DNA from: Lacunisphaera sp. | Lineage (GTDB): Bacteria > Verrucomicrobiota > Verrucomicrobiia > Opitutales > Opitutaceae | Assembly (NCBI GenBank): GCA_029945445.1 | Contig: JAQSCO010000048.1 | Coordinates: 1-64,000 of the forward strand | DNA length: 64,000 bases | Direction of reading: 5' to 3' | Shown: one piece after another, positions 10,096 through 62,583 of the stretch | How the letters are laid out: each line of letters starts with the position of its first letter | Numbering within the stretch: the first letter of the stretch is position 1 | Program-made: the position numbers and the translations under genes | Notes under the pieces: generated by a model | Database searches by the model: none | Seen by the model: the letters and a program-made list of their open reading frames with translations, nothing else | Told to the model about the DNA's origin: nothing

Positions 10096-11235
10096 CTAGA
10101 CGGATGACCGGGCTTCAAACGTGCCATCGGCGCGCTTTGAGACCAGCTTTTTTAACTCGAGTCCCATCAACGCCGCGGACACCTCCGCCGAACCCAGTCC
10201 GGTGGCGGCCGTGAGCGCATCGATGCCGAGCAGGCCGCCGCCGCTGAAAGCCGCGATGACCCGCCGTTCTTTCGCATCGAGCTGTGGCATCAGCTGCTCG
10301 AGCAACCCGAGCTGGCCCTCGGTCGTGATCGCCTGCGGGCGCAGGCCGTCGAGGTAGTTCAGTTCGTTGAGAATATCATCCACGCTGGTGAACAACGTCG
10401 CCCCATCGCGGATAAGCTGGTGGCAGCCCGCGCTGCTCGGCTGGTCGATGCGGCCTGGCACGGCGTAGATCAGGCGGCCCTGCTCGCCGGCGAAGCGCGC
10501 CGTGATCATTGCGCCGCCCGATACATCGCTCTCCACGACCACCGTGGCCTCGCACATGCCGGCGACAACCCGGTTGCGCATCGGGAAGGTCTGCTTGTCC
10601 GCTTTCCGGCCGAACGGAAATTCCGACAACACCGCGCCCGTCTCCGTAATGCGCCGGTAGAGTTCAAGGTTCTCGGGCGGGTAGACAATATCGATACCGC
10701 AGCCGAGCACGGCGGCCGTCTTGCCGCCCACCGACAATGCGCCCTCGTGTGCCGCGGTATCGATACCACGGGCGAGGCCGCTGACCACGCAGAAGCCGAG
10801 CCGCGCGAGGTCGGCGCCGAGCTTCTTCGCCACCGACTGCCCGTAGAGCGTCGTGCGCCGGCTGCCGACGACGGCGATGCAGGGCTGGTTGAAAAGATAA
10901 CCACCCTTCCGGTAGAGCCCGATCGGCGGATCGTGGATTTCCTTCAAAAGCTTCGGGTAGCCCTCGTCGCGCGTGGTGATGAAGGTCGCGCCGGCCTGCG
11001 CCAGCCGCTCCTCCTCGCGCACGAGGTCAAAATGCGTGCGCCAGTTGAGCAACGCCGCGCTCGTCTCCGGGCCGACGCCGCGCACCGACTCGAGCCGGCG
11101 TTTGTCCGAGGTAAGGATGTCGCGCGGGTCGCCGCCGAATTCTTCCAGCAGACGGTTGAGCGAGATGGGGCCGATGTTGGGCAGGTCGTTCAGGATCATG
11201 AACGCCTGGCGCTCGGTCAGTTCAGGGGGAGTCAT
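10096..11235 (-). CDS. dprA: DNA processing protein DprA
   Basis: A 379-residue protein that binds incoming single-stranded DNA and loads RecA during natural transformation. A helix-hairpin-helix region is at about 15-70. The Rossmann-like DprA core carries VVGSRRTTLYG, VVSGLARGIDTAAH and SGAMITA-like loops (here SGGAMITARFA). A C-terminal winged-helix domain covers about 300-375. Its start overlaps the end of the nnr gene by 14 bp, an arrangement often seen for dprA with unrelated housekeeping genes. No other competence gene is nearby. Confidence 0.95.
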   Translation of the reverse strand: MTPPELTERQAFMILNDLPNIGPISLNRLLEEFGGDPRDILTSDKRRLESVRGVGPETSAALLNWRTHFDLVREEERLAQAGATFITTRDEGYPKLLKEIHDPPIGLYRKGGYLFNQPCIAVVGSRRTTLYGQSVAKKLGADLARLGFCVVSGLARGIDTAAHEGALSVGGKTAAVLGCGIDIVYPPENLELYRRITETGAVLSEFPFGRKADKQTFPMRNRVVAGMCEATVVVESDVSGGAMITARFAGEQGRLIYAVPGRIDQPSSAGCHQLIRDGATLFTSVDDILNELNYLDGLRPQAITTEGQLGLLEQLMPQLDAKERRVIAAFSGGGLLGIDALTAATGLGSAEVSAALMGLELKKLVSKRADGTFEARSSV

Positions 11236-12757
11236 GGGCCGCGTGGATCAAGGCAGGTTGCAGATAGTCGAGCAGCTGGGTCGTCTGCACTGCCACCTGG
11301 CCCTTGTCGCGAGCGAGCAAATCCGCAGCGAGGCCATGCCACACTACGCCGCGGCCGGCGGCGAGCAACAAATCGTCCGGCGCCTGCGCCAGCAACCCGC
11401 CGGTCAGGCCCGTGAGCAGGTCGCCGCTGCCCCCGCGTGCCAGCACGGGGCCGCCGAAGAAAGAGTAGTAAGTAGGGCCGGTCTCCGACCGGCCCAAATC
11501 GCTCACGATCCGCGTAACCGGGCCCTTGAGCACAGCGACGGCCTCGCCTTGGGCCGGTCGGAGACCAGCCCTACCCCCGATCCGCTGCCACTCGCCCGCA
11601 TGCGGCGTGCAGATAAAGCGCATGCCCTGGGCGGCCGCAATGACCTCCGGGCGCAACGCGTCGGCGTCGAGCACGAGAGGAATGTTCGTATTACGAACAA
11701 TGGCCTCGACGACGGAAAGGGTTTCCGGTTCCGCCCCGAGGCCCGGGCCGATGGCGAGGGCCGTGGCACGCGGGAGTTTTTCGAGCAAAAGCTCCACGCC
11801 TGTGGCGGCCAGTCCGCCAGCGGATGTCTCGGGCCAGCCGACCCACATCGCCTCGGGAAATTTTGCAGCATATTCCGGCACGAGCGACGCGGGCACAAAG
11901 GCCGTCAACAACCCGACCCCGCTGCGCAGCGCCGCCTGCACGGTCATGAGCACGGCGCCGGGATACTGCCGTGAGCCCCCGACGACGAACAGGTGGCCGT
12001 AGGTGCGCTTGTCGGTCTGCGCCGGGCGTAACTTTGCCAGCGGCGCCAGGATTGAGGCTTGGAGCACACGCGACGACGAGGCCGGCTGGCTTTCCGCGAA
12101 AAAACCAAGGTCGAGGTAGCGCAGGCGGCCGGTGTAGAGGGCGTTGCTCTCCGCGACGACCGGCGCCTTCACGATACCGGTCGCGTAGGTGAAGTCGGCG
12201 CGGAAGACCGTCCCGCCGTTTTCCTCGCCCATCCCGCTCGGCAGGTCGACGGCCGCGCGCAGGCGGATGCGCGGATGGGTGTTCACCCACGCCAGCATCT
12301 TGGCGGCCGGTTCCTCGAGCGGCGGATGGAACTGCATCCCGAACACACCATCAACGCAGAGATCGTAGGAACTGGCCTGGGCCGATTGCCAGTCGAACGG
12401 CTCCTCCCGATTCCCGGCCGCGAGGACAAATTCCTGCCGGGCACGCTGCGTCAGCGGACGAGGTGAACCCGTGCTGAATACGGGGTGAATCGTCACCCGG
12501 GCGCGTGGCCTGTTTTTCAGCAGCGCCGTGGCCGCAAGCACCGCATCGCCGCCATTGTGGCCCTGGCCCATGAGCACGAGGATGCGGGCGTCGTCCGGCA
12601 GCCCGCCGATCTCCTTGAAATCCTCCTCGATGGCCGCGGCGATGGTGGCGCCGGCACGCTGCATCGCGGCCCACTCCGCGGCCTCATCCTTGAGCCGGCC
12701 GGCCTCCCACGCCTTGGCCTCGGCGCAGGGGAGGACCGGGTGCGAAGGCAGCTGCAT
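11222..12757 (-). CDS. nnr: Bifunctional NAD(P)H-hydrate epimerase/dehydratase
   Basis: A 511-residue fusion that repairs hydrated NAD(P)H. The N-terminal YjeF epimerase domain (about 1-215) has the motif GQGHNGGDAVLAA. The C-terminal ADP/ATP-dependent dehydratase (about 230-505) has GGSRQYPGAVLM, TPHAGE, VLKGP and the catalytic GGSGDLL. Oddity: a pair of inverted REP-type hairpins is embedded in frame at residues about 395-403 and 421-429, giving GRAGLRPAQ and LGRSETGPT. The spacing between TPHAGE and VLKGP looks much shorter than I expect for the family. The catalytic motifs survive, so it may still work. Confidence 0.92.
   Translation of the reverse strand: MQLPSHPVLPCAEAKAWEAGRLKDEAAEWAAMQRAGATIAAAIEEDFKEIGGLPDDARILVLMGQGHNGGDAVLAATALLKNRPRARVTIHPVFSTGSPRPLTQRARQEFVLAAGNREEPFDWQSAQASSYDLCVDGVFGMQFHPPLEEPAAKMLAWVNTHPRIRLRAAVDLPSGMGEENGGTVFRADFTYATGIVKAPVVAESNALYTGRLRYLDLGFFAESQPASSSRVLQASILAPLAKLRPAQTDKRTYGHLFVVGGSRQYPGAVLMTVQAALRSGVGLLTAFVPASLVPEYAAKFPEAMWVGWPETSAGGLAATGVELLLEKLPRATALAIGPGLGAEPETLSVVEAIVRNTNIPLVLDADALRPEVIAAAQGMRFICTPHAGEWQRIGGRAGLRPAQGEAVAVLKGPVTRIVSDLGRSETGPTYYSFFGGPVLARGGSGDLLTGLTGGLLAQAPDDLLLAAGRGVVWHGLAADLLARDKGQVAVQTTQLLDYLQPALIHAAHDSP
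11472..11574. repeat. Inverted pair of REP hairpins inside nnr
   Basis: The plus-strand copy has GTAG at 11472-11475 and a stem GGGCCGGT/ACCGGCCC (11475-11482, 11488-11495) with loop CTCCG. The minus-strand copy has GTAG at 11574-11571 and a stem with one T-G wobble (11571-11564, 11558-11551), also with loop CTCCG. The two hairpins face each other about 55 bp apart, as in bacterial interspersed mosaic elements. Both are read through as part of the nnr protein. Confidence 0.8.
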
Positions 12758-62523: not shown

Positions 62524-62548
62524 GGGCGTGGACGAGCCACGCCCCTAC
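62524..62548 (-). repeat. REP-type hairpin with GTAG foot
   Basis: On the minus strand GTAG (62548-62545) is followed by a perfect 8-bp stem, GGGCGTGG with CCACGCCC, and loop CTCGT. Left hairpin of the 140-bp element. Confidence 0.75.
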
Positions 62549-62558
62549 ATGCCTCATC

Positions 62559-62583
62559 GTAGGGGCGCGCCTTGTGCGCGCCC
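62559..62583 (+). repeat. REP-type hairpin with GTAG foot
   Basis: GTAG (62559-62562) is followed by a perfect 8-bp stem, GGGCGCGC (62563-62570) with GCGCGCCC (62576-62583), and loop CTTGT. Right hairpin of the 140-bp element, pointing away from the left one. Confidence 0.75.

Follow-up and report, generated by a model that had tools for sequence, protein, structure and literature searches.

GTAG-type REP sequences in frame within two loops of the nnr dehydratase domain of Lacunisphaera, and several REP families at one of these loops in related genomes

REPs are short non-autonomous repeats that are thought to be mobilised by RAYT (TnpA-REP) transposases. According to the portion available to us of a study of TnpA-REP proteins, these recognise GTAG REPs and cleave in vitro at CT (PMC8266576). 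REPs are normally intergenic, as the preliminary description of the present locus stated, but intragenic GTAG REPs have already been reported and, in the portion of the source available, are most numerous in Opitutus terrae, a member of the same phylum (PMC3733652, BMC Genomics 2013). The same portion of that paper describes recB of two Xanthomonas species, in which different REPs occupy about one site, proposes that REPs within genes may have neutral effects where they fall in linkers or loops, and gives the range of GTAG-type REPs in its Table 1 as stems of 5-13 bp and loops of 2-20. It also deals with the Rickettsia elements RPE-1, -4 and -6, palindromic repeats lying in frame within protein genes, of which RPE-4 and RPE-6 are of the CGTC type and RPE-1 is longer. 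Since intragenic GTAG REPs are already published, the nnr case described here is of a known kind, and its new part is a recurrent docking loop shared by several REP families. Our reading, to which we give a probability of about 0.78, is that GTAG-type REPs were inserted separately in two dehydratase-domain loops of NnrD, are tolerated there as loop peptide, and have hit the second of these sites repeatedly.

The window, i.e., the whole stretch of 64,000 nucleotides of Lacunisphaera sp. that was analysed, carries nnr at 11222..12757 on the minus strand, encoding a bifunctional NAD(P)H-hydrate epimerase/dehydratase of 511 aa with one match in the window's genome (G000). Profiles Pfam YjeF_N, Carb_kinase and TIGR00196 matched above their cut-offs and TIGR00197 below its own; both domains of an NnrE-NnrD (YjeF) protein are present, and the dehydratase motif GGSGD (residues 442-446; 11420..11434, minus strand) has survived intact, as had been claimed. 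The two hairpins are convergent copies of a single 24-nt element with a GTAG foot, copy 1 at 11551..11574 on the minus strand (site 1, GTAGGGCTGGTCTCCGACCGGCCC) and copy 2 at 11472..11495 on the plus strand (site 2, GTAGGGCCGGTCTCCGACCGGCCC), each consisting of GTA, a 9-bp stem and the 3-nt loop TCC, with a single C-to-T stem change in the 11551 copy. The arms 11472-11497 and 11549-11574 are 96% complementary over 26 nt. This agrees with the preliminary description, which had placed a convergent, GTAG-footed pair with the same loop and nearly the same stem in frame within nnr at 11472-11574. By coordinate arithmetic on the 511-aa frame, copy 1 falls within residues 395-403 (GRAGLRPAQ) and copy 2, read on the gene strand, within 421-429 (LGRSETGPT), which are the two peptides previously read in the dehydratase domain; each insertion keeps the reading frame, so that the REPs would be translated as a tolerated loop peptide. 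The 24-nt pattern, at up to three mismatches, occurs in the window at these two places only, and its mean over 100 shuffles was 0.00. Elsewhere in the window, a GTAG-footed hairpin at 17-41 on the minus strand (GTAGGGGCGCAGTCTTGCTGCGCCC) is perhaps another REP variant.

The two sites differ in what the REP has displaced. The site-1 peptide follows TPHAGEWQRI and occupies the place of a variable segment; between TPHAGE and VLKG, the window protein has 19 residues, and the 149 genes lacking a REP at this site have 14-33 with a median of 21 (the regular expression missed 11 of the 165 genes), and, as the window span lies inside the range of the REP-free genes, replacement fits better than net insertion, in line with the earlier supposition that the residues between TPHAGE and VLKGP had been replaced. 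At site 2, the REP peptide substitutes for a short TDG-type turn and is several residues longer. The 55 nt between the hairpins (11496..11550, minus strand, GEAVAVLKGPVTRIVSD) encode VLKGPVTRI and are native to nnr, with K411, G412 and T415, all within this VLKGPxTRI interval, unchanged throughout an alignment of 39 genes, some with and some without REPs.

In the 4.17-Mb genome of the window, the pattern was matched 20 times at up to three mismatches and its reversed control not at all, which answers the earlier call for a count of genomic copies. A covariance model built from 20 rows, one of them mistyped, gave at least 38 matches at E<=1 and at least 27 at E<0.01, counts that are lower bounds because scoring covered 150 of the 3356 first-look candidates. 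The 27 matches at E<0.01, one of which belongs to family B, fall into 16 clusters, of which 11 are converging pairs; the span is 47-72 bp in ten of these but 103 bp in the nnr pair, which is wider by the 55 nt of nnr between its hairpins. With GTAG at the foot of both copies, a stem and a loop within the published range, and many genomic copies that are often head-to-head dimers, the element (family A) is a GTAG-type REP. Five Y1_Tnp loci were detected in the genome, three of them above the cut-off, and no good family-A copy was found beside any of the five, the best match of the A model there reaching 16.5 bits. A further family, D (GTAGGGGCGCGCCTTGTGCGCGCCC type), has 34 copies in this genome at up to one mismatch, compared with 12 for family A; one family-D pair, with feet facing each other, lies in the window at 62524-62583, and a Y1_Tnp (RAYT) match at about 81.2-82.0 kb of contig C45 (L043) has family-D REPs within 300 nt on both sides and is likely a REPtron.

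Comparison with the described systems places the window pair close to, and apart from, each of them. Like the intragenic REPs of O. terrae in the available part of PMC3733652, these are GTAG-footed hairpins in genes, single or dimeric; unlike the cases described there, several REP families re-use one turn in eight genera. The Rickettsia repeats are likewise in-frame intragenic palindromes, but RPE-4 and RPE-6 are not of the sequence type of the window element, which is GTAG-type and about 24 nt long, and RPE-1 exceeds it in length (comparison limited to what the available part of PMC3733652 says of them). A REPIN consists of inverted REPs and a repeat-specific spacer that are moved together, and the window pair resembles such a RAYT-mobilised dimer in having two inverted REPs; unlike a REPIN, it encloses native coding sequence and has a span above the 47-72 bp range. 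The idea that the pair was inserted as one unit, or moved as a REPIN, was therefore rejected, because its spacer is the conserved VLKGPxTRI strand pair, and we regard the locus as two single REPs placed around that strand pair. In the literature searched, by terms other than the gene name "nnr" and with the main sources available in part, neither a report of REPs in nnr nor a case of several REP families sharing a single turn in different genera was found; the former may figure in Additional file 3 of PMC3733652.

The predicted fold of the protein is undisturbed by the REP peptides, which are modelled as loops. The model of the window protein, based on 39 sequences, has a mean pLDDT of 93, with the first REP segment (395-403) mostly loop and including a four-residue helix at 395-398, and the second (421-429) forming the turn that joins the predicted strands 415-419 and 429-432. 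The best PDB match of the whole model was Thermotoga maritima TM0922 (3rss; Z 35.2, rmsd 6.2, 468 aligned), and the dehydratase domain by itself matched 3rph (Z 30.2, rmsd 2.7, 262 aligned). In the model of the G017 protein, a 20-residue peptide of family B is a low-confidence loop (428-436 with pLDDT <50) and the fold is again intact. The REP-bearing enzyme is probably still functional.

The gene nnr was present in 35 of 38 related genomes (E<=0.001) and in 190 of 200 sampled family genomes (E<=1e-60), and 165 nnr genes, 158 family-level and 7 order-level, were read from among the matches listed. REP sequence was found at site 2, the beta-turn after KGPxTRI, in 14 of these 165 genes from eight genera (by genus codes), with families assigned by eye: A in seven (G000, G007, G003, G139, G086, G057 and the degenerate G161), B dimers in three (G017, G005, G075) and C dimers in four (G145, G060, G187 and the degenerate G015). 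Site 1 carries a REP in five of 165 (G000, G003, G007, G145 and, degenerate, G161), with G145 combining C at site 2 and A at site 1. The native turn in many relatives is TDGKT. Site-2 length was tabulated for 164 genes, the motif search having returned a blank for L207; longer site-2 sequence in L119, L186, L019 and L022 was left out of the REP count, as were, outside the 165, longer site-2 sequence in L300 and L349 and the relic-like L325. G017 and G007 each have an nnr region identical to that of a Lacunisphaera sp. MAG, a different one in each case, both MAGs being Opitutaceae. The A-family pair of the window was also found in two further genomes of the genus, and site-2 dimers of A, B or C occur in other genomes; a recent insertion private to one strain, as had been envisaged, was accordingly rejected. 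Beyond the two sites, GTAG hairpins were seen in other nnr loops, namely after LDLGFF in G023 and G105 and, as a pair, in the epimerase domain of G078 (L193), and the nnr gene of G011 (L033) has a long insert (THPGASRHPSLEGIFDRPSARSPLERGARQGG) in an N-terminal epimerase-domain loop that resembles a different repeat.

Under our reading of separate insertions, RAYT transposases would have moved the REPs, perhaps by single-strand insertion, into each of the two NnrD loops; insertions that broke the frame or the fold would have been lost, and survivors would have persisted in the tolerant site-2 turn, which different REP families may so have filled many times, replacing the native turn. An alternative is that one ancient insertion per loop was inherited vertically, lost many times, and overwritten with the local REP family by gene conversion from copies elsewhere in the genome. 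The site-1 REPs of G000, G003, G007, G145 and the degenerate G161, alike in orientation and nucleotide position, speak for it, and trees built without the loop columns (FastTree for 165 rows; IQ-TREE for 44 rows that include the carriers by choice) do not separate gain from loss, parsimony counting changes rather than gains: presence requires a minimum of 11 changes (165 rows) or 10 (44 rows), presence by family 14 or 13, and site 1 five on both trees. We suppose that the changes were mainly gains. The nearest gene to the window's nnr, that of G017 (support 100/98), has no site-1 REP and another family at site 2. Against this alternative, REP-free relatives within the genus have the ordinary short TDG turn. 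Conversion should also preserve the insertion ends, whereas these differ by family: the B dimers begin right after the Ile codon and the A and C dimers 4 nt further on, and C insertions end 4 to 7 residues short of the usual Tyr codon. Ancient insertion with conversion appears unlikely.

Third codon positions of G000 and G007 match at 6/8 and 8/8 in the REPs, compared with 48% in the rest of the gene and 42% between the REPs, and those of G000 and G003 at 6/8 and 7/8, compared with 43% in the gene outside the REPs. Against ordinary 8-codon windows, site 1 (87.5% nt) equals the 95th percentile, and at site 2 the G000/G007 identity of 100% exceeds the maximum of 95.8% and the G000/G003 identity of 91.7% lies below it. 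The REPs appear to postdate the divergence of the genes or to have been held alike by conversion, which would also give high REP identity; judged against such windows, the age test is milder and not decisive. The family at site 2 tends to be one abundant in its host genome, among A, B and C. With two copies removed, 10 of the 14 carriers hold the most abundant of these three, compared with 4.9 in permutations (p 0.004), and a log-likelihood permutation of nnr family against host A/B/C counts gave p 0.0006. The exceptions are G007 and G057, with B more numerous and A in nnr, G145, which has 205 copies of A and 159 of C and yet C at site 2, and G015, whose nnr has a degenerate C and in whose genome no C was found. 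The match was tested among A, B and C only, the three families seen at site 2; family D, commoner than A in G000, is at none of the 14 site-2 REPs, so that a rule by which nnr carries the most abundant REP of its genome fails for G000 once D is counted.

Another alternative, improbable in our estimate, is that the insertion machinery targets the DNA itself, for instance TAC/GTA beside site 2 or a secondary structure. It would account for the ends of A and B insertions, which in nine of ten cases (all but G161) come no further than one codon from the usual Tyr codon, and for the identical start nucleotide of the three B dimers in two genera. In favour of our own reading, a strict scan of the 165 nnr genes found 26 GTAG hairpins, whereas three codon shuffles gave 4.3 on average. 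At 177 distinct loci, a loop stretch picked after the data were seen (200 nt before GGSGD) held 16 hairpins in 35.4 kb, at 10 loci, versus 13 in 229.0 kb in the rest of nnr and 9 in 183.1 kb and 8 in 182.0 kb in the flanks, i.e., hairpins were 8 to 10 times as dense there as in the rest of nnr or in the flanks, which include intergenic DNA; this contrast suits our reading and targeting alike. Against targeting, the ends of the C insertions differ, and REPs are also present in other nnr loops and in ccoG. In our reading of separate insertions, the recurrence at site 2 would mainly reflect survival in a tolerant loop.

The ccoG gene (L068:2209-3735; G000:C51:135969-137492) is the other clear in-frame case in the genome, with a REP dimer (VGPVSDWPRDRSETGPT, C51:136761-136810) that sits in the Fer4_18 domain immediately ahead of the cysteine motif CIDC; it served as the control gene. 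Among the 16 clusters at E<0.01, those in nnr and ccoG are the two that lie between conserved gene parts; two further clusters precede the first Pfam domain of GxGYxYP ORFs and possibly fall outside the true gene, and some of the remainder are in ORFs without a family match and some in no ORF. Thirty genomes were searched for the ccoG loop and 29 matched; one has the REP, the other 28 have none there, and five (L223, L227, L236, L237, L240) have other extra sequence at the loop without a strict GTAG hairpin, an uneven comparison with nnr in that nnr REPs were part of the reason for selecting the 30 genomes, and the REP of G000 the reason for selecting ccoG. A codon-bias screen of 20 stretches each of G000, G003 and G145, which did not include nnr, flagged 4 of 20, 5 of 24 and 3 of 43 hairpin clusters, respectively; by sequence, one (ccoG), none and two of these were family-A REPs, the others resembling chance hairpins.

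The preliminary description left the pair as either tolerated or adopted by the protein. Tolerance is upheld by a repeated family lying in frame in a single-copy open gene with an intact predicted fold. Adoption, in which the REP peptide or an mRNA or DNA hairpin such as a regulatory stem would be selected in nnr, could draw on the recurrence and on the folding of the 123-nt stretch well beyond shuffles (z -7.9 as DNA and -7.2 as RNA), an excess to be expected for any inverted REP pair; but 151 of the 165 genes lack a site-2 REP, the peptides vary by family, the dimer loop is of low predicted confidence, and two copies (G161, G015) are degenerate, which makes this part of the earlier proposal very improbable. 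An assembly artefact or chance palindromes can hardly be credited, for although many genomes are fragmented and the named records were found to be nearly all metagenome assemblies, the same pair occurs in the one-contig genome G003, and with pattern controls of 0 in the searches of the window's genome and of the genus, a chance origin of the repeats was rejected.

A bolder and doubtful reading is that the nnr dehydratase turn might be a preferred insertion site which several Opitutaceae REP families reach repeatedly, a safe harbour at the level of the protein in which the native turn is replaced each time. The locus amounts to a natural repeated experiment in the passage from mobile hairpin to protein, in which at least three repeat families occupy one loop across eight genera, with both filled and empty alleles. 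The question of whether intragenic REPs are targeted, tolerated or adopted becomes testable with one assayable enzyme, and, for annotation, such loop inserts should be read as repeat-derived.
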